64,000 nt of DNA from contig JAUWJD010000004.1 in the NCBI GenBank assembly GCA_030607875.1, positions 1-64,000 of the forward strand, given 5' to 3'. This DNA is from Chloroflexota bacterium (lineage in GTDB: Bacteria > Chloroflexota > Anaerolineae > UBA2200). The translations under genes were made by a program, and so were the position numbers. Below are positions 12,393 through 51,131 of the stretch, in pieces (the first letter of the stretch is position 1; every line of letters begins with the position of its first letter). Under the pieces are notes generated by a model. It did not search any database, was not told where the DNA came from, and saw only the letters and a list, made by a program, of their open reading frames with translations.

Positions 12393-12450
12393 GAGCCGAC
12401 CGAGGGCTACGCCGAGATCCACGGCCGGGTGGAGATCGAGCAAGTTCGAG
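12393..12450 (+). pseudogene. Internal fragment of wzt (EPTEGYAEIHGRV + VEIE) with internal deletion
   Basis: GAGCCGACCGAGGGCTACGCCGAGATCCACGGCCGGGTGGAGATCGAG matches intact wzt at about 14945-14985 joined to 15077-15090. Confidence 0.8.
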
Positions 12451-12476
12451 CAGTGATTTTCAGGGAGGTGTTAGCA

Positions 12477-12701
12477 GTGGATACGCAGACCAAGTCTTCA
12501 GATTTCCAAAGGGTTATCGAAGATGTTGAGACGTTGCCCATTGACGATCAATTGCTACTGATCGAAATCATCCGCCAGCGCTTGATCCAGCATCGGCGTT
12601 CCGAGCTCATTACAGAAGTCGCCGAAGCACGTGAGGCCTACCAGACAGGGAATGTGCGACGAGGCACGGTAGAGGATTTGCTCAAGGAACTGGACACGTG
12701 A
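12477..12701 (+). CDS. Putative antitoxin of a RelB-type TA pair
   Basis: Small ORF ending EVAEAREAYQTGNVRRGTVEDLLKELDT, directly upstream of a RelE/YafQ-like toxin; ORF can extend to 12429 in frame with the wzt remnant. Confidence 0.65.
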   Translation: MDTQTKSSDFQRVIEDVETLPIDDQLLLIEIIRQRLIQHRRSELITEVAEAREAYQTGNVRRGTVEDLLKELDT

Positions 12702-12982
12702 AGACCCTGGTCTGGAGTTCCAGCTTCATCCGTGCATTTCGGCGTGCGGTCCGCCGACAGCCTGGATTGCGTGCCAGGGCTGTGAATACCCTCCGACAGT
12801 TAGCAGAGGATCCGTTTCACCCTTCGCTGCACAGCCACAAACTGAAAGGGCAAATGGCCGGTGTCTGGGCATGCACGGTGGATTATGACAACCGCATCCT
12901 CTTCGAGTTCGTCGAGAATCCCGAATCGGGTCAAGAGGAAATCCACCTGCTGACAATGGGGACTCACGATGAGGTGTACTAG
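12698..12982 (+). CDS. Type II toxin, RelE/YafQ-like
   Basis: SSSFIRAFRRAVRRQPGLRARAVNTLRQLAEDPFHPSLHSHKLKGQMAGVWACTVDYDNRILFEF. Confidence 0.8.
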   Translation: MKTLVWSSSFIRAFRRAVRRQPGLRARAVNTLRQLAEDPFHPSLHSHKLKGQMAGVWACTVDYDNRILFEFVENPESGQEEIHLLTMGTHDEVY

Positions 12983-37661: not shown

Positions 37662-39767
37662 ATGATCCCAAAACGCAACGATCCAATCGATGACTATCCA
37701 GACAGCTCCGAAGGACGCCCCCCCTGGGCCAGCACGGGCCTCTGGCTAACACTGCAGCGTTTCGCTGGATGGGTCGCACAGCACGAACTGTGGATCCTGG
37801 CGGCCGCTGCGCCTTTCCTCCTCTTTCCCAGCCGCTGGACCGTCCTGGCCTTCTCCGTGATCGTCGCTTCCTGGCTTTGCCGCTGGATCGCCCAGGGAAG
37901 GCTCAGCGTACCGACGCCAGGAGATGCGCCCATCGCCCTGCTGCTGTTCACGACCGCGATCGGCCTCTACGCCTCGGTGGATCCATCTTCGAGCCTTGCG
38001 GGCCTGTGGCGCATCGTGCTGGGCGTGGCAGTCTTTTACGGCCTGGCCCACGGGCTGCGGAGTGAGGCACGGCGGCGATGGCTGCCCATAGTCCTGATCT
38101 TCTGCAGCCTGGCACTGGCACTGGTCACCCTGATAGGCACAGAATGGGCCAGCGTGCGATTGTTGCGCCTGCCCCAGATATACGAGCATCTTCCCAGATG
38201 GATTCGGGACATCCAGGATCAGAACGCCTTTCACCCACGGATCATGGGCATGGCGCTGGCAACATGGTTGCCCATCCCCCTCGCTCTGCTGCTGTTCAGC
38301 CGCAACAAGCGTCAGCGTGCATGGGCGGGCCTGGCGGTTTTGGTCATGGGCTTGACCCTCTTGCTCACCCAATCCCTGCAGGCCACCGTCGGAGTTGCGT
38401 GCGCCGTGTTGTTCCTGGCCGTGTGCTGGAATCGCCGGTTCCTGCTGACTGTGCCGCTCTTGCTGGGGGCCTTGCTGTTGGGTCTCAGGATGTATGGTCC
38501 CCAGCAGGCCGCCAAGGCCCTTCTGTCCCTGGACCATCCCCTCGGCATTGCGGTGGTTCTGCGGCTGGACATGTGGAGCCGCGCGCTCGCTATGATTCAC
38601 GACATGCCCTATACCGGCATCGGACTGGACACCTTCCCGGTGATCCAGAGCCAGTTCTACCCCGGCGTGATGATCGGCCCGGAGCCGCACGCTCACAACC
38701 TGTTCCTGCAGCTCGCTTTGGACCTGGGCCTGCCGGGCCTCTTTGCTTTCCTGTGGCTCCTTGTCAGCCTCGGCTATGCAGCGTTCAACGCATACCGCAA
38801 GTGCAGTGAGCCAGATACGCGCGCCCTTCTGCTGGGTGCGGTTGGCGGTGCTGTGTCCTACGTGGCTTCAGGGCTGCTGGATACCATCTGGACGGCCAAG
38901 CCCTCCGTCCTGCTTTGGTTCATCCTGGGCCTTTTCGCTGCAGTGTCTGCAGCCGTCGCTCGCTCCGACGAGCCCCGCGCGTCGCGGAGGTTGCCGGCAT
39001 GGGTGCACCGAACCACTCCTCTGTTTCTGCTGTTGGTTCTTCTGATCCCTGGCCTCTTGGTCACTCGTGCTGGCCCCGCTCTCAACCTGGCCACCGTTCG
39101 GGCCCACAAGCTCCTGCTCTCCGCCCAAGCGGGCCAGGGTCCTTCACGCCAGGCTCTTTCGTCGCTGGCTGAAGAACTCACCGAGGTCGCACGCGTGGAT
39201 GTGGACAATGCTCATGTCCACAGCTTGTTGGGCCGCGTTCTTGCCTGGCAGGGCGAGTACGCAGCCGCCATCGAGGCCTTTCACACACGGGTGCAGATTG
39301 ACGGTAAGAACGCAACCGCGCGTTACGACCCTTCTGAGAGCCTGCGCCGGCGCCTGCTGGCCCAGGGGGGACCGGATCAGTGGGAGGACACCGTGCGAAT
39401 CTACTCGCAGTGGACCAGCCGCTTCCCGCAACGCGCAGAGCACTATGTGCTGATCGCGCTAGTACGGGACCGACATCAGGACAACCCCCGAGGCGCTGCT
39501 GCGGTTCTGAATTCAGGAATAGAGCGCGGAGCAGAGCCCCAGGGGCTTCTCCTATATTACCTGGAGACTATGCAAAAACCAGCCGAAGCGGCTGTTTCTC
39601 GCATAGTCTCTCGACTTCATTCGGATAAGAACACCCTCCTGACAGAACCCCGCACGACTGCCACTCTGCACGTCCATGGCTTCCAGCAACGCCAATCATT
39701 TTCCACCTTCCTGCTACCAAAAAGCTACCCTTTGTTTATGCTTATATGCTATACTATCGCAAAGTAA
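37662..39767 (+). CDS. O-antigen ligase/polymerase (Wzy/WaaL)-like membrane protein with TPR-like C-terminus
   Basis: Many TM helices; TGIGLDTFPVIQSQFYPGVMIGPEPHAHNLFLQLALDLGLPGLFAFLWLL. Confidence 0.85.
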   Translation: MIPKRNDPIDDYPDSSEGRPPWASTGLWLTLQRFAGWVAQHELWILAAAAPFLLFPSRWTVLAFSVIVASWLCRWIAQGRLSVPTPGDAPIALLLFTTAIGLYASVDPSSSLAGLWRIVLGVAVFYGLAHGLRSEARRRWLPIVLIFCSLALALVTLIGTEWASVRLLRLPQIYEHLPRWIRDIQDQNAFHPRIMGMALATWLPIPLALLLFSRNKRQRAWAGLAVLVMGLTLLLTQSLQATVGVACAVLFLAVCWNRRFLLTVPLLLGALLLGLRMYGPQQAAKALLSLDHPLGIAVVLRLDMWSRALAMIHDMPYTGIGLDTFPVIQSQFYPGVMIGPEPHAHNLFLQLALDLGLPGLFAFLWLLVSLGYAAFNAYRKCSEPDTRALLLGAVGGAVSYVASGLLDTIWTAKPSVLLWFILGLFAAVSAAVARSDEPRASRRLPAWVHRTTPLFLLLVLLIPGLLVTRAGPALNLATVRAHKLLLSAQAGQGPSRQALSSLAEELTEVARVDVDNAHVHSLLGRVLAWQGEYAAAIEAFHTRVQIDGKNATARYDPSESLRRRLLAQGGPDQWEDTVRIYSQWTSRFPQRAEHYVLIALVRDRHQDNPRGAAAVLNSGIERGAEPQGLLLYYLETMQKPAEAAVSRIVSRLHSDKNTLLTEPRTTATLHVHGFQQRQSFSTFLLPKSYPLFMLICYTIAK

Positions 39768-39894
39768 TCTCGGCGATGCGTCCATCCGACGAGTCATGAT
39801 CTATGTCAGCAAGATTGAAACACGATTTCCGGACACTGGCTCCGGTCTAGAACGCCGAGAAGGGATTCGGCATACATTTACAGGAGGTCAAAGC

Positions 39895-42261
39895 ATGAGA
39901 CTGAGCAAGACTGTTCTGATTGTGATGGTCCTTTTAGCGCTGCTGGTGTCATTTGGCGCCGGCAACCTGACGGCGCAGCCAACTGCGCAGCAGGGTTCGG
40001 ACAGCAGGTTGACCGGGTTCCCGGATTCGACGCCCTACACAGATCCGGTCACAGGCGGGTTCTTCCCCAACAGCGGCAAGTTCATCAACGTCACCCGTGG
40101 CCTGGCCAGCCTTGGCGACGTCGGCGAGGGTCAGAGGGTCTTTAACCTGTCCCTTGCCATCCCCGCTAGCCTGACCGCCTTCGAACTGGAGGTCTTTGAT
40201 GGTGACATGGGTGGCAAGTGGGACCGGCTTCCGACAGGCACTCCCGATCAGCTCACCTTCCGCCTGTACGCTGATCCCCTGCTCACGGGGGCGTCTGACG
40301 TACAGCTGTACCCCGAGTGGGCTGCCACGTCGATGCTGGACGACGATTGGTGCACCTTGAACGAAAGCGGTGACTGTGAGGCAGGGGCCTTGATTACCCA
40401 GCACGATGCGGCCTACAATGAAGATGAAGACACCTACTACTACCACCTCATCGCCACCTGGAACACCATCGACAACACCGATGAGCAGAACGTGTTCAAG
40501 GTGCGCGTGCGAGGCACGCCCTTCCTGCTGGCAGGCAGCACCATCGGCTTCGAGGGCTTTGGCTGCAATCTGGAGCACCCCTTGTGCACGCCCGACTTTC
40601 TCTGGTACAGCGCCTACGACGGCATCTTCGAGTTCGATTTCGTGGTGCCAGTCCTCGGCCCACCGCACCCGCTGGGCGTGATTGAGCTCTACGATGGCGA
40701 CTTTGACCTGGTGCCCGACACGGACGATTTCAACTCACTGTCGGACCCCTCGTGCCGAGGAGCTGCCGCTGATCCGGATGGCCCGGGGCCCAAGGTCCCT
40801 GATCCGCTGAACGGACCGTGGTACACCGTGCTCGATCCGGCTACAGGCTTGCCAAGCTGCGGCTTCCCGCCCTTCCAGACCTCTCCGGACACCTGGGTCG
40901 AGGGCGCCAACACTGGCAACCCTCCAGACGACCAGCCGTGGCCTCTCTTCCTGTGGGAACCGGACATCTGGTACGAGGTCATAGGCCCGAACAACGAGAC
41001 GGCGGCGAACCATAACGTGTCCGGAAACCAGGAGTGGGAGCTGTTCCGCATCGGACTGACCGGGGCTCCGGACGAGGACGCAACGATGTCCTCCTTGCCG
41101 GCCGGCGCCTACCGCTGGCGCATTCAGGGCGTGGATGCACTGAACACGCTGTTCGTGCACCTGAAATACAACCTCTTGCCCTCGCTACCCAAGCTGGGCA
41201 ACACGGTATGGTTCGACAAAGACCGGGACGGGTACTGGGATGCGACGCCAGAGGAGCCCGGCATTGTTGGCGTAGTGCTCAACCTGTACGTCGACGTGGA
41301 CGGGGACGGACAGCTAGACCTTGATGGCCGTACTCCCGATCAGCTCATAGACAGCACGTCCACCGGTGCAGACGGGCAGTACTGGTTCTACGACATCCCC
41401 ATCGGCGTGGTCAACACCTACTGGCTGGTTGAAGTCGCTCCGGAGAACTTTTATGCGGGTGGCCCGCTTGAAACCCTAGCGCCGACGATAGACCGCTCCA
41501 CCGTAGCGGGTGATCATTACAACCGCTCGTCGCCATGGGCAGTGACCATGCCTCCGACTAACGTCGACTACATCGTGGCTGACTTTGGATATGTCGATCA
41601 GGGTGATTTCTGTGTCTGGGATCCGGACGATCCTGATAACGGGGCCACCGGCGGTTGGTGGATCAACTCGGATGCGGAAGGCAACCCGCAATCGGTCACC
41701 ATCCGCACCACGCTGGCCCGCACTTTCGCGGACACGGCCTACGGCACCAACGCGCACCTCACAGGCTGGCCAGGACAGGGGCGCAGGTTCAAGCACATCT
41801 GGACCTCTGACAATCTAGAGATGGAGCTGCTGAACGGCAATGGCGAGGTTGTCATGGAGTTCGGCATAGACTTGCTCGAGCGCACAGACGACCCCAACTT
41901 CCCATCGGGCGTTGCAACGGCGGGCGTCACTGGCGGCGATGGCTACCTTGCGGTCGGTGATCTCGCTCACGTACTGAACTACGAAACATCTATGAGCCTG
42001 AATGTCAACGACTCTGGGTGCTTTGACCCAACCACCTCACCGGAGGTAACCGTAGACCCAGAAACCGGAGAATACACCTCCGAGGCTTGTCCGGCGTGGT
42101 TTTGGGACACCTGGTATGAGATCACGATTGACCTTGCGGCCTTTGGCGATTCTGGCTTTGGTGATGCGATTGTGACGACACTGCATTCAAGCCCGAGCAA
42201 GACCGGTGAGGAAAAGCCCGACATTGATCCCTGCCCGCCTGATTGGCGCGATTGGCTATAA
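39895..42261 (+). CDS. Secreted surface protein with SdrD B-like (Cna-B-like) domain
   Basis: RBS AGGAGG at about 39882, signal peptide MRLSKTVLIVMVLLALLVSFGAGNLTAQ; LGNTVWFDKDRDGYWDATPEEPGIVGVVLNLYVDVDGDG...GADGQYWFYDIPIG. Confidence 0.82.
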   Translation: MRLSKTVLIVMVLLALLVSFGAGNLTAQPTAQQGSDSRLTGFPDSTPYTDPVTGGFFPNSGKFINVTRGLASLGDVGEGQRVFNLSLAIPASLTAFELEVFDGDMGGKWDRLPTGTPDQLTFRLYADPLLTGASDVQLYPEWAATSMLDDDWCTLNESGDCEAGALITQHDAAYNEDEDTYYYHLIATWNTIDNTDEQNVFKVRVRGTPFLLAGSTIGFEGFGCNLEHPLCTPDFLWYSAYDGIFEFDFVVPVLGPPHPLGVIELYDGDFDLVPDTDDFNSLSDPSCRGAAADPDGPGPKVPDPLNGPWYTVLDPATGLPSCGFPPFQTSPDTWVEGANTGNPPDDQPWPLFLWEPDIWYEVIGPNNETAANHNVSGNQEWELFRIGLTGAPDEDATMSSLPAGAYRWRIQGVDALNTLFVHLKYNLLPSLPKLGNTVWFDKDRDGYWDATPEEPGIVGVVLNLYVDVDGDGQLDLDGRTPDQLIDSTSTGADGQYWFYDIPIGVVNTYWLVEVAPENFYAGGPLETLAPTIDRSTVAGDHYNRSSPWAVTMPPTNVDYIVADFGYVDQGDFCVWDPDDPDNGATGGWWINSDAEGNPQSVTIRTTLARTFADTAYGTNAHLTGWPGQGRRFKHIWTSDNLEMELLNGNGEVVMEFGIDLLERTDDPNFPSGVATAGVTGGDGYLAVGDLAHVLNYETSMSLNVNDSGCFDPTTSPEVTVDPETGEYTSEACPAWFWDTWYEITIDLAAFGDSGFGDAIVTTLHSSPSKTGEEKPDIDPCPPDWRDWL

Positions 42262-42638: not shown

Positions 42639-42920
42639 ATGGCAACCCTTGAGTCAACAATCCGGCTTCCCAGAGATGTCCTGTTTCGCGACCTGGGTGG
42701 CGAGGCGGTGCTGCTGAACCTGGAAAACGGCAAATACTACGGGCTGGACGACGTCGGCACTCGCATGTGGTCCTTGCTCGCCGAGCATGGCCGGGTAGAG
42801 CGGGCCTATCAGGCTCTGCTAGGCGAGTACGACGTGGATGAGGAACAGCTCCTCCGGGATCTGCTGCGATTGATCGATGAGCTGGCACACAATGGATTGC
42901 TTCAAGTTAACGAGACATAG
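42639..42920 (+). CDS. PqqD family protein (RiPP recognition element, lasso B1-like)
   Basis: IRLPRDVLFRDLGGEAVLLNLENGKYYGLDDVGTRMWSLLAEHGRVERAYQALLGEYDVDEEQLLRDLLRLIDELAHNGLL. Confidence 0.92.
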   Translation: MATLESTIRLPRDVLFRDLGGEAVLLNLENGKYYGLDDVGTRMWSLLAEHGRVERAYQALLGEYDVDEEQLLRDLLRLIDELAHNGLLQVNET

Positions 42921-43356
42921 GCTGCGCACGGTGCTTACCCTCTCACCGCACGACTGGTGGATGCTGGTCCAGACATGGACCCTGCTGCTGGCCGTTGATC
43001 TGGGCCTGCGCGTCCTGCCGTTGCGAAGGGTGCAGGCACTGCTTTCGCTGAGACACAAGGATGCCAGGTATCCCTACCCTGCCGAATTGTCTGCTGTCAC
43101 TCAACACTTGTGGAGGCTGGTTGACATTGCCGCGCGCCATCACCTGTACCGCATGACTTGCCTGCGGCGTTCGGTGGTGCTACAATGGTTGCTGAGAAGG
43201 CGTGGCATTCCTGCCGATCTGCGGATTGGCGTTCGCAAGGAATCGGAGGTCCTGCGTGCACATGCCTGGCTGGAGGTTCAAGCCAAGCCCATTGGCGATC
43301 CAGAGACCATCGCCGCGTGCTATGCGCCCTTGGTAACCTGGGAGGCCGACCGATGA
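42877..43356 (+). CDS. Lasso peptide biosynthesis B2 protein (transglutaminase-like leader protease)
   Basis: MTCLRRSVVLQWLLRRRGIPADLRIGVRKESEVLRAHAWLEV (Cys and His of the B2 fold). Confidence 0.9.
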   Translation: MSWHTMDCFKLTRHRLRTVLTLSPHDWWMLVQTWTLLLAVDLGLRVLPLRRVQALLSLRHKDARYPYPAELSAVTQHLWRLVDIAARHHLYRMTCLRRSVVLQWLLRRRGIPADLRIGVRKESEVLRAHAWLEVQAKPIGDPETIAACYAPLVTWEADR

Positions 43357-45329
43357 GCGGCATCTGTGGTATCGTCAAGCTAGATGGTGCGCGGGTTGAA
43401 CCGCAGTTGCTGCGCAAAATGGCGGATGGGGCGGCCTATCGTGGACCGGATGGGATCCGGCACTGGGTGCAAGGGCCTGCTGGGTTTGCCCATCTAGCCT
43501 TTCACACCACTCCCGAATCTGCGCGTGAGCGCCAGCCCCTCCTGAGCGATGATGGCCGCTATTGTCTCGTCACGGATGCCCGCATCGACAACCGCGATGA
43601 CCTTATCCCTTTGCTTTATGCCAAGGGTCTTCTGAAATCGAAGTTGCCGACAGACGCGGACATCATCTTCGCTGCGTATAGCCAATGGGGCGAAGATTGC
43701 GCTCAGTATCTCATTGGCGACTATGCCTTTGCGCTATGGAACGCGCCGAACCAGCGGTTGTTCGCGGCCCGCGACGTCATGGGGATCCGACAACTGTACT
43801 ACACTGTACGCGATGGTACCCTGTACTTCGCTACGACTATCGGCAGTCTCATCGCCGCCCTTCCCAGCCGGCCCGCACTGAACGGACCGTTCGTAGAGGA
43901 CTTTTTGCGTTGTCGGTGGAACAGATGGGTACACGAGACGGTGTATGCGGGCATCTACCGTTTGCCGCCTGCACATTCCCTGGTGAGCACTGAGAAGGAA
44001 GTGCGGCTGCGGCAGTACTACACGCTGGGGTCTCGGCCCCCGCCCGCGTATCAGACGGACGAAGAGTGGATCCTGGCCTTTCGCGAGCTATTGAACAAGG
44101 TCCTGGTAGCACAGTTGCGCAGCCAGACTCCGGTCGGTATCCTGGTCAGCGGCGGCCTGGATTCGTCCGCAGTTGCCAGCGTCGCTCATGATATCAGCCA
44201 ACGGCGCGAAGTACCAATGATCAAACTCATCACCTGTCTGTTTGACCATACACCAAGCGCCGATGAACGGGAGTTCTTCCACGAGGTGGAAGCTTACTGT
44301 CCCGACTTTGAATCCCACACCTTTCTGGGTGACGAGCTGTGGGGTTTTCGCGATGTCGGTGCGGAAAGCGGTTATCCCCTGGACGAGCCGGACATTTATG
44401 TACTGCGAGCGCAAACAATGGCGCTCTTTGGCGCAGTTGCCAGCAGTGGCTGCCGCGTGGCGTTGAGCGGAGACTGGGCCAATGGCACCTTGGGCGACGC
44501 GGTTTATGCCACCCCCCGTGCACTGAGAGCAGTTGATCTGAGGACACTGCCATCTGAGATCAAACACTTTAAGAGATTCAGCAAGGAAAGCTGGGTCAGG
44601 CTGTTGTTGAGAGCCTACGCGCCGGAGACTCTGCTGCGCCTGTACCGCAAAGTCATCGATCCCAAGCGCGGGTTATTCGGTCCTTCGCCTACGCCCTGGG
44701 TCCGGCCGTTGGATGATAGTCTCAACCAACGGCAGACAGGTGCCAGGAGTACCAGGCTTCACCGCCCGGATGGACTATCGATTTCCGGAGAGGCCATCCT
44801 GCAGTGGTCAACGCGCGCCTATGACTTTGCCCGGGTGAGTGCGGTAGATGTGAGCACCGCGTTCGCGGGCATTGAGTGGCGGCTGCCGTACCTCGATCGC
44901 CGCATTGTGGAGTTCGCCTTGCGCATGCCGCAGCACATGGCCTGCTCCAATGGCATGAACCGAGTTATTCTACGGCAGAGCATGCGCGGTTCGCTCCCCG
45001 AAAGCGTGCGTTTGCGCATGGATAAGCCCGGCTTGGTGGAACTCGTCTACCGTGGTTTTGAACGTGAGAGAAATCGTGTAGAATGTCTACTAAATGAGCC
45101 GCGTCTCGCAACGTTGGGTTTTATTGATGGTGCGACGCTCCGTGACGAGGTTCACAGGCTGTGGCCAGAAGGAGACAGCAACGATTATCGATTTCGACAT
45201 TGCCTTCCCAGCCTGCTTATGGAGGCCTGGTTGCGCCATGCTTTCCCAACGGTAGATGACATTACTGTTGGCTGTAACGGGTACAATGGCGTTGCGAACC
45301 AGCTATGGAACGAAGGAGGGACATCATGA
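43353..45329 (+). CDS. Asparagine-synthase-like protein (lasso cyclase type)
   Basis: MSGICGIVKLDG, AYRGPDG, PVGILVSGGLDSSAVASVAHDIS. Confidence 0.9.
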   Translation: MSGICGIVKLDGARVEPQLLRKMADGAAYRGPDGIRHWVQGPAGFAHLAFHTTPESARERQPLLSDDGRYCLVTDARIDNRDDLIPLLYAKGLLKSKLPTDADIIFAAYSQWGEDCAQYLIGDYAFALWNAPNQRLFAARDVMGIRQLYYTVRDGTLYFATTIGSLIAALPSRPALNGPFVEDFLRCRWNRWVHETVYAGIYRLPPAHSLVSTEKEVRLRQYYTLGSRPPPAYQTDEEWILAFRELLNKVLVAQLRSQTPVGILVSGGLDSSAVASVAHDISQRREVPMIKLITCLFDHTPSADEREFFHEVEAYCPDFESHTFLGDELWGFRDVGAESGYPLDEPDIYVLRAQTMALFGAVASSGCRVALSGDWANGTLGDAVYATPRALRAVDLRTLPSEIKHFKRFSKESWVRLLLRAYAPETLLRLYRKVIDPKRGLFGPSPTPWVRPLDDSLNQRQTGARSTRLHRPDGLSISGEAILQWSTRAYDFARVSAVDVSTAFAGIEWRLPYLDRRIVEFALRMPQHMACSNGMNRVILRQSMRGSLPESVRLRMDKPGLVELVYRGFERERNRVECLLNEPRLATLGFIDGATLRDEVHRLWPEGDSNDYRFRHCLPSLLMEAWLRHAFPTVDDITVGCNGYNGVANQLWNEGGTS

Positions 45330-45502
45330 GAGAGCCAGAGCGTCCGCTGGACCAAGAGACTGGGCAAGAACCTGAGCCAAAGTCAAGACTGCCGTATGCG
45401 CCGCCGAAGCTTCACGAATACGGACAGCTCTCAGAGTTGGTTCAGTACGCACCGTCCGAATATCCAAACGAAGCGATTGCCGGGTCTTGGTCTACGTTCT
45501 GA
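45326..45502 (+). CDS. Candidate lasso peptide precursor (58 aa)
   Basis: GGAGG RBS, ATGA overlap with the cyclase; leader YAPPKLHEYGQLSEL fits YxxPxLxxxG; candidate core YAPSEYPNEAIAGSWSTF. Confidence 0.75.
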   Translation: MREPERPLDQETGQEPEPKSRLPYAPPKLHEYGQLSELVQYAPSEYPNEAIAGSWSTF

Positions 45503-45524
45503 CATACCTCTTGTCTGTGCGTAG

Positions 45525-46508
45525 ATGAAATCGGAGTCTCTGCGGCGCGAGCCAGCACAGAACATCGTAGGCCTGAGTGCCTGTGTTCAGGACTGCAGCC
45601 TGCAATTGACATACCGGCAGACCGAGAGTGCGGTGAAGCGACTGGCAGCCCGGTTCATCGCGGCCTTTGGTCGCAGTGAGCTGGGGGGGTTTTGCTACAT
45701 GGCGATTCCTCGAGGCGGCCTATTCGTTTTAGGTATGCTGTCATACGTGCTCGACCTGAGTCGTGAAAGCTTGCTGCCACCGCCTCCCGATCTCCCCCTG
45801 GTGGTGGTTGACGACTGTTGCTTCTCCGGAGCGCGTTTCCACCACGTGCTGCAACTGGTTGAGAACGAGCAGGTCATCTTCGCTCATCTCTATTCTCATC
45901 CCGATTTGCGCGCGGCCATCGAGCATCAGGAGCCCCGAGTGGTTGCCTGCCTGGCAGCGCACGACCTGCGTGACCTGGCTCGGGAACGCTACCCCAATGA
46001 AGAAGAGTACCGTGCCTGGCAGGAGCGCTGGCGCCAGCGGCTGCCAGGTTCACGCTATTGGATTGGCCTGCCGGAGCTCGTTATCTTCCCGTGGAACGAG
46101 CCGGACCGTCCTGTCTGGAACCCACTCACAGAGGAGTTGGAAGACAACTGGCGGTTGACGGCGCCGGACCGCTGTCTCAAGAACTGGGCTCGCCTGGGGG
46201 CACCACCAAGCACAGAAGCGCAGCCAACCCTGCGCAGCCCAGATGCAGTTGCCTTCAGTGTGGGTAACGGCAAGGTCATCCTCTGTGACCTGCAAACCGA
46301 ACAAGTATACGGCCTGGAGGACGTTGCCGCCGACATGTGGCGCGCCCTGACTGCGTATGGCGACCTGGATGTGGCTGCCGAATACTTGCTGAGCCAGTAC
46401 GAGGTGGACCAGACCAGACTGCGCAAGGATTTGAGAGCATTTGCGGACCATTTGCTGGCCAAGGGACTGTTAGAGCGAGTGCATGAGCCAGGCAACAGCA
46501 AGCCCTAA
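45525..46508 (+). CDS. Phosphoribosyltransferase-PqqD fusion protein
   Basis: N-terminal PRTase features (YMAIPRGGLFVLGMLS and PRPP-loop-like LVVVDDCCFSGARF); C-terminal PqqD (VILCDLQTEQVYGLEDVAADMWRALTAYGDLDVAAEYLLSQYEVDQTRLRKDL). Confidence 0.82.
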   Translation: MKSESLRREPAQNIVGLSACVQDCSLQLTYRQTESAVKRLAARFIAAFGRSELGGFCYMAIPRGGLFVLGMLSYVLDLSRESLLPPPPDLPLVVVDDCCFSGARFHHVLQLVENEQVIFAHLYSHPDLRAAIEHQEPRVVACLAAHDLRDLARERYPNEEEYRAWQERWRQRLPGSRYWIGLPELVIFPWNEPDRPVWNPLTEELEDNWRLTAPDRCLKNWARLGAPPSTEAQPTLRSPDAVAFSVGNGKVILCDLQTEQVYGLEDVAADMWRALTAYGDLDVAAEYLLSQYEVDQTRLRKDLRAFADHLLAKGLLERVHEPGNSKP

Positions 46509-47502
46509 GCCAGAGAATGGCACGTTTCCACCTGCCTCGGCGACCTACCGTATCTTCGGTCTCACCCTGGCTAGCGACTTCCCCTTCGCCAACCGGCTTG
46601 CACCAGGTCTCGGTGTCCCCGACCTGACCTTCACCTGCGTCACCGCAGCCCCACTCCCCAGCAGCTGGGAGCAGGCCACGCCCGCCTACACGAGTTCCTA
46701 CCGTACTGACGACGGCGAGAGCATCTTCTACCTCTACCAGTTGGACGCCTGCGACGTGCTGCGCTTCACCCGCGTTGCTGACTTCTACCTCTGGCCTGAC
46801 CGCATTATCTGCCACCTGCTGGATCCCGACTACGAGTATCTCGTGGAGATCCGCTTGCTCGGGCCGGTGCTCTCCTTCTGGCTGGAGCGCCAAGGGGTCC
46901 CTGCTCTCCACGCCTCGGCCGTTGTGGTGGAGGATCGCGCCGCAGCATTCCTTTCCAGCAACAGCGGTGGTAAGAGCGTGCTGGCGGCCATGTTGATGCA
47001 GGCTGGCTACCCACTGCTCACCGATGACATCCTCCCCGTGGAGCAGAGCCACGGCGCGTTCCTCGGCCGACCTGGCTATCCCCAGATGCGCCTCTGGCCC
47101 GACGAAGCCCATTACTTCCTGGGCCGCTACCAGGATCTGGAGCTCGTACATCCCTCGTACTCCAAGCGTCGCGTCCCTGTGGGCCCTCCCGCCTTTGGCA
47201 CCTTCTGCCCTGAATCGAAGCCCCTGGCTTGCCTATACCTGCCGCAGAGGCGTAGTGCGGCAGAGGGGGATACGGAGATCGAGATCACGCCCGTCTCACG
47301 CCGGGATGCGCTGATCGAACTGGTCCGCCACTCCTTTGCGGCATCGATCGTGGAGCAGTTGGGACTACAACAGCAGCGCCTGGATCTATTCGCCCAGATG
47401 GTGCGGCTGGTCCCCGTGCGCCGGCTCGTCTACCCTTCCGGTTTCGAACACCTGGCCCTCGTGCGGGAGGCGATACTCCAGGATTTGGAGACGCTGTCCT
47501 AG
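46483..47502 (+). CDS. HPr kinase/phosphorylase-like protein (RiPP-associated kinase type)
   Basis: ASATYRIFGLTLASDFPF..., HASAVVVEDRAAAFLSSNSGGKSVLAAMLMQAGYPLLTDDILPV. Confidence 0.82.
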   Translation: MSQATASPKPENGTFPPASATYRIFGLTLASDFPFANRLAPGLGVPDLTFTCVTAAPLPSSWEQATPAYTSSYRTDDGESIFYLYQLDACDVLRFTRVADFYLWPDRIICHLLDPDYEYLVEIRLLGPVLSFWLERQGVPALHASAVVVEDRAAAFLSSNSGGKSVLAAMLMQAGYPLLTDDILPVEQSHGAFLGRPGYPQMRLWPDEAHYFLGRYQDLELVHPSYSKRRVPVGPPAFGTFCPESKPLACLYLPQRRSAAEGDTEIEITPVSRRDALIELVRHSFAASIVEQLGLQQQRLDLFAQMVRLVPVRRLVYPSGFEHLALVREAILQDLETLS

Positions 47503-47542
47503 CCACACACAGCGCTACGCCGGGTCAGTAGCACACCACTCA

Positions 47543-49426
47543 CTAGCCGCCCCGCCCCACTCTGGGCAGGAACTGTTCCAGTAGCAGCGGCGGGCCCAGG
47601 TGATACTCGGGCGCATCCCACTGCCGCCCGGCGCACCAACCTCCGAAAGAGTCCCCCAGGTCAACCCAAGGTTCCAACCGTCCTTCCACAACACTCACGG
47701 CCCCGCCCTCAATCTGTAACTTCACCACCTCGATCTGAAGGGGTCCCGCCGCAGTGCCAACCCTGCTTGTGTCCGTCAAGGTGACAGTCACCGTCTGAGC
47801 CAGCGGCTGACGCTGGAGTGGCATGGACCAGGTCCGCTCCGCTGCGCTCAGGCTAGCCATCGTTGTGGTGTAGACCCTTTGCTGCGTCTGCACCTGAACT
47901 TGCACATCCACGGGCAAAAGCCCATCGTTGGAAATCGTCAGCGTCAGTGTGTCCGCGCTTGCACCTACTCTGCTCAGCCCCACGTTTGGTGTCGCCGCCA
48001 GGAGGTACAAGCTCCAGTGCAGCCAGCGATGCACCGTCAGTGGAATCTCGTCCGGCGGCGGGTTGAATGCCTCACCGAGACTCAAGCCGACAGTGTAGGT
48101 ATTCGTCATCGTGATGCGCTGCGTAAACGACAGCGAGCTGGCGCCGTACACCTCGGGTGTCCAGGCCAGAATCCCCTGCTCGTACAGCCAGTCCATGACG
48201 TTGCCGGGTCCGGCGTACAGCCCCCGCGCCGTCCAGGTGTGGGGTGCGCCATGGAAGCCGTTCGCCTCGGTAAGCTGGCTGCCCTTGCGTGACAGCATCT
48301 CGTACCAGAACACGTCTGGCAGCTCGGCCTCGGCGGACCAGCCCCAGGGATGCAGCAGCGTATCGGTGCCGGATTGAAAGTCGCAAGCCATCACGATGTT
48401 GGGCCGCGCCAGCACGAAATCCCGGACGGCGCGGGTCTCTGGTTCGGAGAAGGCCACCGGGCCATGGTAAGTGTCCGCCCTGGGATCCTCATTGCCCAGC
48501 TCCCAGTGGCTGTCAAAATTGCGGTTGGGATCCACGCCGCCGGGCGGGTCCTCCCCGGCCAACCCGTCCCCATCGTTGTCTACCTGGACGACCTTTCTAC
48601 GCTCATTATCAAAGATCCCCACAAACGTACGGCTCACCAGGTGAGCTTGCCAGCCTTCGGCGAAGGGGGCATCGGGATGCTCTGCCACCCAGTCGGCATC
48701 GAATTCGTAGTGATACACGTCGTAGGTGCCATAGCCCGCCTCCTCGCGCCCATCCTCGTCGTACAGACCATCTCCATCGTCATCGCTGGCCGTCGGGTTG
48801 GCCGTCTTGCGCTGCCTCTGATCCGCATCCAGGAAGATGTCGTTGCCGTCGGGGTTCACGCAGGGGACGGCGTACACCGTCCGCGTGTCCAGCAGGTGGG
48901 TGATCAGCGGGTCACTGCCGTACTGCGAGGCCAGGTACCATAGGAGGTACAGCACCACCGGGCTGCTCACAGCCTCGCGGGCGTGGATCCCACCCTCTAC
49001 GTACAGCGCCGGCCGGCTGTCTGGCCCGCCCGTTGCCTGGTTGCTGATCCGTACCGCCATGATCGGCCGCTCTTGCCATGACCGGCCGATTTCCCTTGCT
49101 TCCACCAGCCCAGGATAGGCGCTCTGTAGTTGATTCAGGAACGCCACTATCTCCGCGGAGGTCGGGTAGTGGGTGAAATCCACCACGAAGGACGGATCGG
49201 GGAGGGGGATGTCTGCCGACCGGTGGGTGAGCATCGGACGCGAGAGCTGCTGGCCATGCTCACGTCGGTACAGATCATCAAGGCCTTCGATCCAGCGAAA
49301 ACGGTCGATGGGTGCCCGAGGCTGGGCCTGACCACGGGCCGGGCTGAGACAGAGACCCGCGATGATCGCGAGGATCAGAGCGCTCAACAGCAGATAGCGA
49401 TTCCTCAAAAGCTCAAGTGTGGCCAT
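47543..49426 (-). CDS. M14 family zinc carboxypeptidase, secreted
   Basis: YVEGGIHAREAVSSPVVLYLLWYLASQYG (HxxE), VPCVNPDGND, signal peptide. Confidence 0.88.
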   Translation of the reverse strand: MATLELLRNRYLLLSALILAIIAGLCLSPARGQAQPRAPIDRFRWIEGLDDLYRREHGQQLSRPMLTHRSADIPLPDPSFVVDFTHYPTSAEIVAFLNQLQSAYPGLVEAREIGRSWQERPIMAVRISNQATGGPDSRPALYVEGGIHAREAVSSPVVLYLLWYLASQYGSDPLITHLLDTRTVYAVPCVNPDGNDIFLDADQRQRKTANPTASDDDGDGLYDEDGREEAGYGTYDVYHYEFDADWVAEHPDAPFAEGWQAHLVSRTFVGIFDNERRKVVQVDNDGDGLAGEDPPGGVDPNRNFDSHWELGNEDPRADTYHGPVAFSEPETRAVRDFVLARPNIVMACDFQSGTDTLLHPWGWSAEAELPDVFWYEMLSRKGSQLTEANGFHGAPHTWTARGLYAGPGNVMDWLYEQGILAWTPEVYGASSLSFTQRITMTNTYTVGLSLGEAFNPPPDEIPLTVHRWLHWSLYLLAATPNVGLSRVGASADTLTLTISNDGLLPVDVQVQVQTQQRVYTTTMASLSAAERTWSMPLQRQPLAQTVTVTLTDTSRVGTAAGPLQIEVVKLQIEGGAVSVVEGRLEPWVDLGDSFGGWCAGRQWDAPEYHLGPPLLLEQFLPRVGRGG

Positions 49427-49889
49427 ACCTTCTCTTCGTCTCTACACCATCCTTCGTGCACCCGTACACCGATGAAGCTCGCTCCCATTATACCACCGCA
49501 ACTCCACACGTCAACACCTGGTGGCGGAAGGTAGTGTGTCCTTCGTACCGACGTAGCTCGATTGCTGTGTCACTGCGCTCTCTTATGTAGTATAGGGGCT
49601 TGTCCCCGTCCGTGACTTCCATAAAGGGCTATGCTACATACCCTGCTTTGCACCAGAGACCCAAAGACCGCGGACGAGACGGTCTGCCTGCCATCATGTC
49701 TTGTGACAGTAGGCTGCTCGCCACTCGGCAGGTCTTCTCACACCAGGGTGGGCATGGTGTTTCCCATCTGCTCTCGGAACCCGATTTCCTGAGCCAAAGA
49801 CCCACTATCCGGCGGAATGCCCAAAAGTGTGGTACAATAGGACATATCCGTACCGGAGGGATAGGCCGCACGCCAGTGGCGGGCACCCA

Positions 49890-51131
49890 ATGAACCGGCC
49901 CAGCCCTCGGCAAGGTCAGCCAAGGAGAATCTTGTCCAAACCATACAAATCCCCGACAGCAGGCACTCGTCCCGAAACCGATCTGCTTCTCTGCTGTGCC
50001 CAGGTCTGCGCGGATTCTGAAAGGGCCGAGCGCATCAGGGCGCTGCTCCGAGAAGACCTGGACTGGGAATACCTGCTTCAGACAGCGCAGCAGCACGCTA
50101 CGATGCCAATCCTGTATCAAAGCCTGACCACTGCTTGTCCGCAAGCCGTTCCCAAAGCTGTCTTGGATCAGCTCCGGGAGCATTTCTACAGCAACACACG
50201 GCGCAACTTTGCCCTCACCGGAGAACTGCTCAAATGTCTGAATCTGCTTGAGGCCCACGGCATCCCCGCCGTGCCGTACCGGGGGCCTGTGCTGGCAGCT
50301 TCCGTCTACGGCGACTTTAACCTGCGTCAGTTCGGTGATCTGGACATCCTGGTGCACAAGAAGGACGTCATGCGGGCCCAAGACCTGCTTATATCCCAGG
50401 GTTACCGGCCCGAATTCCAACTCAACCGCGCACAGGAGGCAGCCTACCTTCGGGCCCAGTCCGAGCACAAAGTTGTGCTCGATGAGGGCCCGGTTATCGT
50501 GGAGATCCACTGGCGACTCACAGAGGGATACTTCTCCTTCCCGCTCGACCCAGAGCAACTGTGGGAGCGCCTGGAGCCGGTATCGCTTGCTGGCAAAGAA
50601 GTGCAGACCTTCTCGCCCGAGGACTTGCTCCTGATCCTGTGCGTGCACGGCACCAAACACCTGTGGGAGCGGCTGGGGTGGATCTGTGACGTGGCCAAGC
50701 TGGTGTGCGCTCATGAAGCGATGAACTGGCAATGGGTTATGGAGCAGGCCTGCGCACTGGGCAGTGCACGGATGCTCTTCCTCGGCCTTTTCCTGGCCAA
50801 CGATCTCCTGGGTGCAGCCCTTCCGGCAGAGGTATTGCAAAGGGCGCAGGCCGACCCAATGGTTGTTTCGCTCGCCCGGCAGGTGCGACAATGGCTCTTT
50901 CTTGATCCCAGCGAGCGGCCTGGAAGCCTGGAAAGCTGCCTCTTCCACCTCAGAGCGAGAGAACGAACGCAGGACAGAGTACGATACTGCGTCCGCCTGG
51001 CTGTGACGACAACGCCTGGAGACTGGGCCCTCGTGCGGCTGCCGTCATCTCTGTTCCCTCTCTACTACGTGCTGCGGCCGATCCGGCTGGCGGGGAAGTA
51101 TGGACTGGAACTATTGAAGCGCTTACTCTGA
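49890..51131 (+). CDS. Nucleotidyltransferase family protein (PF14907-like), RiPP-associated
   Basis: LLEAHGIPAVPYRGPVLAASVYGDFNLRQFGDLDILVHKKDVMRAQDLLISQGY, IVEIHWRLTEGYFSF. Confidence 0.87.
   Translation: MNRPSPRQGQPRRILSKPYKSPTAGTRPETDLLLCCAQVCADSERAERIRALLREDLDWEYLLQTAQQHATMPILYQSLTTACPQAVPKAVLDQLREHFYSNTRRNFALTGELLKCLNLLEAHGIPAVPYRGPVLAASVYGDFNLRQFGDLDILVHKKDVMRAQDLLISQGYRPEFQLNRAQEAAYLRAQSEHKVVLDEGPVIVEIHWRLTEGYFSFPLDPEQLWERLEPVSLAGKEVQTFSPEDLLLILCVHGTKHLWERLGWICDVAKLVCAHEAMNWQWVMEQACALGSARMLFLGLFLANDLLGAALPAEVLQRAQADPMVVSLARQVRQWLFLDPSERPGSLESCLFHLRARERTQDRVRYCVRLAVTTTPGDWALVRLPSSLFPLYYVLRPIRLAGKYGLELLKRLL

Follow-up and report, generated by a model that had tools for sequence, protein, structure and literature searches.

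What does a phosphoribosyltransferase-like (PRTase) domain do when it is fused to a precursor-recognition domain and encoded inside a lasso-peptide operon? The question is raised by a 64,000-nucleotide stretch of a Chloroflexota genome (assembly GCA_030607875.1, contig JAUWJD010000004.1, positions 1 to 64,000; hereafter the window), which lies within a 132,617-base contig of a draft assembly that is 84% complete. An earlier note, made from the letters alone, had read positions 42639-51131 as a lasso-type cluster for a ribosomally synthesized and post-translationally modified peptide (RiPP) with an expanded tailoring set, and family matches and open reading frames (ORFs) placed every gene that it named at about the position and on the strand it gave. 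The unusual part of the cluster is the fusion of the PRTase domain to a RiPP recognition element (RRE), a combination that occurs in no described peptide pathway within the literature that we searched. Six closely packed genes of the + strand occupy 42639-47502:

42639..42920, + strand: B1, a stand-alone PqqD-type RRE of 93 aa (PF05402, 67 bits, 1.5e-18, cut-off 23.4; NF033536 lasso_PqqD, 4e-17)
42877..43356, + strand: B2, a transglutaminase-like leader peptidase, Transglut_core3 (PF13471, 4e-22; NF033537 lasso_biosyn_B2, 89 bits, 2.8e-25, cut-off 33; both above cut-off)
43353..45329, + strand: C, an Asn-synthetase-like macrolactam cyclase (PF00733, 4e-34; NF033535, 1e-108)
45326..45502, + strand: A, the precursor, 58 aa
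45525..46508, + strand: the PRTase-RRE fusion, 327 aa
46483..47502, + strand: K, an HprK-like peptide kinase, 339 aa

By its gene families, this is a lasso cluster with split B1 and B2, containing an RRE, a B2 peptidase in whose translation the Cys, His, and Asp motifs are discernible, an AsnB-like cyclase, and a precursor with an RRE-binding motif and a ring acceptor. The match of the cyclase to the lasso model NF033535 is strong, yet it falls under the model's cut-off. The N terminus of the cyclase, MSGIC, has lost the glutaminase nucleophile Cys2, as is expected in lasso cyclases, and the ATP loop VSGGLDSS is retained. The lasso reading of the earlier note is upheld by these family matches, the cyclase start, the leader motif, the Glu9 of the core, and the classical precursors found in orthologous clusters. 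B1, B2, and C very likely make a lasso peptide, and the identity of 42639-47502 as a genuine lasso-peptide operon, kinase included and mostly of a familiar type, is well supported.

The fusion consists of a type I PRTase-like domain at about residues 26-222, with a PRGG loop and a phosphoribosyl pyrophosphate (PRPP) loop reading LVVVDDCCFSG, and a C-terminal PqqD RRE at about residues 240-317. The RRE half scores 43 bits (5.7e-11) and lies well above the PqqD cut-off in the window and in the related loci L119, L120, and L102; it is weak in L122 and L123. The PRTase half matches PF00156 at 0.0012, below the cut-off, and the same model weakly matches six of the seven relatives, the best at 1.8e-4, likewise under the cut-off. 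Weak matches in the Protein Data Bank (PDB) include several PRTases, and an hhalign comparison of the family profile with a Gpt-like purine PRTase gave a probability of 94% over a span that takes in the PRPP loop as well as the PRGG region, against at most 2.3% for 150 random ORFs used as a control. Across the seven relatives, 38 columns are invariant, including PRGG (P62-G65), V95-D96-D97, and G102-x-R104-F105. The Gpt-type purine PRTases (PDB 1vdm and 4z1o) share with the fusion the PRGG region and the VVD-D/E-xxxTG loop found in the profile comparison; unlike them, the fusion is otherwise diverged in sequence, carries an RRE, and stands in a RiPP context. A structure model from the single sequence reached a pLDDT of 43, too low for use. 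A separate PRTase-like protein at L128 (G105:C277), with VPRGG and LLVDDMIVTG motifs and also LPWE, gave an 84% profile match to the fused PRTase domain.

The domain is rare. Within the class, 7 of 396 genomes had strong matches, and a phylum-wide profile search of 399 sampled genomes gave no clear member except in the window's own genome, the weak matches including some ordinary PRTases. When genome contigs, viral contigs, plasmids, and phages were scanned for the fusion protein or for its PRTase half, just RRE matches or chance similarity came up, the genome contigs being scanned by exact short peptides, which can overlook relatives.

Where the fusion occurs, its neighbor is nearly constant: an HprK-like kinase adjoins it at six of the seven loci (the window, L119, L120, L121, L122, and L123), and the seventh, L102, is a contig of 1.7 kb. 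In the window the kinase gene starts inside the 3′ end of the fusion gene. Family models score K below threshold, and its assignment comes from alignment with other lasso-locus kinases. Aligned with nine other HprK-like kinases, K shares with all of them His143, Gly163-Lys164, and Asp182, and Asp181 is almost invariant; the corresponding H-K-D-D residues of lasso kinases have been proven essential (PMC9266682, PMC10368454). In the kinase tree the window, L119, L120, and L121 form one clade, and the kinases of L122 and L123 belong to a second, divergent one; the pairing of fusion and kinase is therefore not one inherited block, and its persistence across kinase types argues for a joint reaction. 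No lasso genes lie near the L122 and L123 pairs, and their genomes have no B2 match. These two loci (L122:8345-10234 and L123:914-2857), where the PRTase-RRE gene and the kinase gene are divergently paired away from any lasso B2 or cyclase, possibly belong to an unknown peptide pathway; we saw no convincing precursor ORF beside either pair.

The same constancy bears on a different role for the domain. PurR-type regulators are PRTase-fold sensors, and on their model the PRTase domain could bind PRPP or a nucleotide, hold the leader, and gate the kinase or the cyclase, leaving a lasso peptide that is merely phosphorylated. A constant kinase partner would suit a kinase regulator, the similarity to catalytic PRTases is weak, and phosphorylated lasso peptides are already known. 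We nevertheless consider a sensor improbable: the pyrophosphate loop and the acidic PRPP pair stay invariant among the relatives down to 34% identity, and a sensor would have no need of an intact pyrophosphate loop.

Comparison within the family shows what travels with the fusion. The order B1-B2-C-A-fusion-K, followed by a convergent carboxypeptidase gene, recurs in G485 and G463, both from the family to which the window belongs, and so is not due to chance. Two further genes of the window come into play here:

47543..49426, − strand: a secreted M14 zinc carboxypeptidase, convergent, a probable accessory gene (PF00246, 1.7e-56)
49827-51131: N, a PF14907-like gene (PF14907, 3.6e-69)

In these two genomes, 65-68% of residues are identical to the window for the fusion, K, and M14, and 67-71% for B1; B2 and C reach 45-49%. 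The fusion on its own stands at 65-66%, against 45-47% for the cyclase. We then surveyed 71 loci with a B2 gene across the phylum, 48 of which also had a cyclase. Among these 48, an HprK-like kinase was found at 40, a PF14907 gene at 20, and the PRTase at 3. The earlier note had called three transferases unusually many; this holds for the PRTase-RRE fusion and not for the other two, as a kinase and a PF14907-type nucleotidyltransferase are typical of paeninodin-like lasso clusters (PMC9266682, PMC13381572).

Those frequencies, and PF14907 orthologues (65-66% identity) in both G485 and G463, would fit an ordinary phosphorylated and possibly glycosylated cluster of the paeninodin or pseudomycoidin type, with the kinase and the PF14907 protein as its tailoring enzymes and the PRTase either incidental or directed at a small molecule. 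This we judge unlikely. The PRTase carries a fused RRE, and its gene stands between those of precursor and kinase and overlaps the latter; it is conserved far more closely than the cyclase; and in the relatives the PF14907 gene is linked to a polysaccharide polymerase, not to the lasso genes.

The precursor gene is preceded by AAGGAGG, its ATG overlaps the cyclase stop (ATGA), and L119 and L120 have a precursor in the corresponding position. Homologous clusters without a precursor at this position, which the earlier note had named as telling against it, did not appear: G485 and G463 both have one there. The leader carries YAPPKLHEYG, a motif of the YxxPxLxxxG type, and the junction reads ...VQ-YAPSEYPNE, with Glu9 as the ring acceptor. 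The residue at −2 is Val, not Thr (a correction). The precursors of G485 and G463 are classical, with Thr(−2), G1, and D8-9, and have little likeness to that of the window beyond the leader. Val or Ile at −2 has precedent in phosphorylated lasso precursors, so Thr(−2) is not strictly required (PMC10368454). We took the cores as starting after the −1 residue (YAPSEYPNEAIAGSWSTF, GTGKKAPDSPFPGSQTTFFAPEKRRF, and GTYKFGYKDANGGSYYPGFFEPKE). The window core, YAPSEYPNEAIAGSWSTF, lies at 45446-45499, with a predicted ring between Tyr1 and Glu9 and a predicted modified Ser14 at 45485-45487.

Gly13-Ser14 is common to all three cores (shuffle P 0.0006), Ser14 being the sole Ser aligned across them, and the third core, GTYKFGYKDANGGSYYPGFFEPKE of G463, has no other Ser. 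The cores end in Phe (window and G485) or Glu (G463), and the C-terminal Ser of the paeninodin type is absent. Across precursors of the kinase subclade, Ser14 was present in six of eight and Thr14 in one, whereas among the remaining clusters with a kinase 1 of 16 had Ser14 (Fisher P 0.0013; permutation over any position 2e-5). These P values are indicative only, as the pattern in the three cores was already known when the subclade was picked from the kinase tree. One member of the subclade, the precursor at L194 (7069-7227, minus strand), has a very short predicted lasso core of 14 residues, GGAAGATDAALGKS, natively ending at the predicted phospho-Ser14.

Val(−2), Tyr1, and the missing exporter could instead be signs of a decaying cluster that has lost its function. 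Two genomes of a third genus of the family, G438 and G503, keep just B1 and B2 near related flanking genes, and no cyclase, PRTase, or M14 was found in either genome. We think decay very unlikely, as all genes of the window are intact with overlapping starts, and dN/dS between G485 and G463 is about 0.1-0.15 for B1, the PRTase, K, and M14, with dS near saturation for some. The loci with only B1 and B2 (L173:9252-10134 and L174:8991-9702) are either relics or a cyclase-free use of the pair.

From the gene set and order, their conservation, the catalytic motifs, the kinase pairing, and the Ser14 pattern, all read from sequence, we infer a series of reactions, their order, and their site. The leader motif would bind B1, which would serve both B2, cutting the leader after −1, and C, closing the predicted Tyr1-Glu9 macrolactam. 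The RRE of the fusion would bind the same leader. As a first step, the HprK-like kinase would phosphorylate core Ser14 on the leader-bound precursor; the PRTase would then add 5-phosphoribosyl from PRPP at Ser14, most likely onto the phosphate. Analogies for a phosphoribosyl group on phosphoserine are offered by PsmN, which puts hexose on phosphoserine in pseudomycoidin, and by DPPR synthase, which uses a lipid phosphate as acceptor. Export would use an unlinked transporter, and the secreted M14 enzyme may afterwards trim the tail back to Ser14. This last step is speculation; trimming of longer cores to ...GS14 is thinkable because the L194 core natively stops there.

An enzyme fused to an RRE usually acts on a ribosomal peptide, and we lean toward the lasso precursor as the probable substrate of this PRTase. 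That it acts at Ser14 is a tentative proposal, and the phosphate of Ser14 as its acceptor is more doubtful still. We give about even chances to an intact lasso operon with a two-enzyme tailoring module of kinase and PRTase-RRE, whose product may be a ribose-phosphate-decorated peptide. Several points weigh against such a product. The product and reactions are deduced from genes, and the cluster has no exporter; in agreement with the earlier note, none was seen among the ORFs, read by eye, of the cluster and near flanks in three genomes (window, G485, and G463). The PRTase domain, under its Pfam cut-off, could be a noncatalytic PRPP sensor. The first Walker A Gly of K is replaced by Ser, as it is in L119-L121. 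Val(−2) together with Tyr1 is unusual in the window precursor. The M14 linkage could be mere local synteny in so small a sample. Known lasso kinases act on a C-terminal Ser or on Ser3, not on Ser14.

The described systems closest to the cluster share parts of it. Paeninodin-type clusters (PadeK, ThcoK; PMC9266682) have the split B1/B2, the cyclase, the HprK-like kinase with H-K-D-D, and a YxxPxL leader; unlike them, the window cluster has a core that does not end in Ser, a predicted internal Ser14, an extra PRTase-RRE, Val(−2), and no ABC exporter. In pseudomycoidin (PsmK, PsmN; PMC9266682) a kinase acts and a second group is placed on the phosphoserine, PsmN adding hexose, whereas here the second step would fall to a PRTase that depends on PRPP and brings an RRE of its own, and the PF14907 gene is probably part of a polysaccharide locus. 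The Bsf lasso cluster (PMC10368454) resembles the window in its Ile/Val(−2) leader and a kinase for an internal Ser, phosphorylation being aided by B1, but lacks a PRTase and modifies Ser3 instead of the predicted Ser14. Linear polyphosphorylated peptides (PMC13381572) combine an RRE with an HprK-like kinase, cyclase-free and near polysaccharide loci, comparable to the fusion-kinase pairs in G507 and G703; they differ in their leader peptidase, and no PRTase domain is mentioned. A search for lasso or RiPP literature with phosphoribosyl gave nothing relevant, the sole paper containing both words concerning hisZ. The main texts of two RRE surveys describe many fusions and never mention a phosphoribosyltransferase, and one could be listed, undiscussed, in their supplementary tables.

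Beyond the operon, G485 and G463 have M14 orthologues (66-67% identical) in the matching position, and no M14 match was found in G438, G503, G520, or G410. The cooccurrence with the full cluster, in three of three genomes against none of four without it, is suggestive, the genomes being few. The earlier note had counted the PF14907 gene in the cluster, and this part is probably wrong. The orthologues lie far from the lasso genes, at the end of a polysaccharide locus and directly beside a gene for an O-antigen-ligase-type polymerase. We did not count the gene because of this linkage, and it probably belongs to the neighboring polysaccharide locus; in the window the lasso block sits between the polymerase gene and the PF14907 gene. 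By analogy, its protein could still act in trans in a PsmN-like role. Directly upstream of the cluster, window positions 1-39767 hold a long polysaccharide biosynthesis locus with glycosyltransferases, sugar nucleotide enzymes, an ABC exporter, and a Wzy_C polymerase, assigned by eye except for the polymerase, which came from a family search. Inside it, at 12429-12982, a small gene pair resembles, by eye, a RelE/YafQ-type toxin-antitoxin module. A large secreted SdrD_B-like protein is encoded at 39676-42261, and G485 and G463 have homologues of 38-39% identity in the equivalent position, in both cases next to a subtilisin-malectin protein.

The PRTase-RRE fusion is a possible, still tentative, new class of RiPP tailoring enzyme, one that would transfer phosphoribosyl from PRPP to a kinase-primed Ser14 and would team up with HprK-like kinases as a portable unit, in lasso clusters and elsewhere. 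Because the cluster is defined, the partner kinase conserved, and the candidate residue a single one, the proposal is directly testable, and the comparison also predicts Ser14 as the target residue for one subclade of lasso kinases. If true, a ribose-phosphate handle would give lasso peptides a new chemical group.

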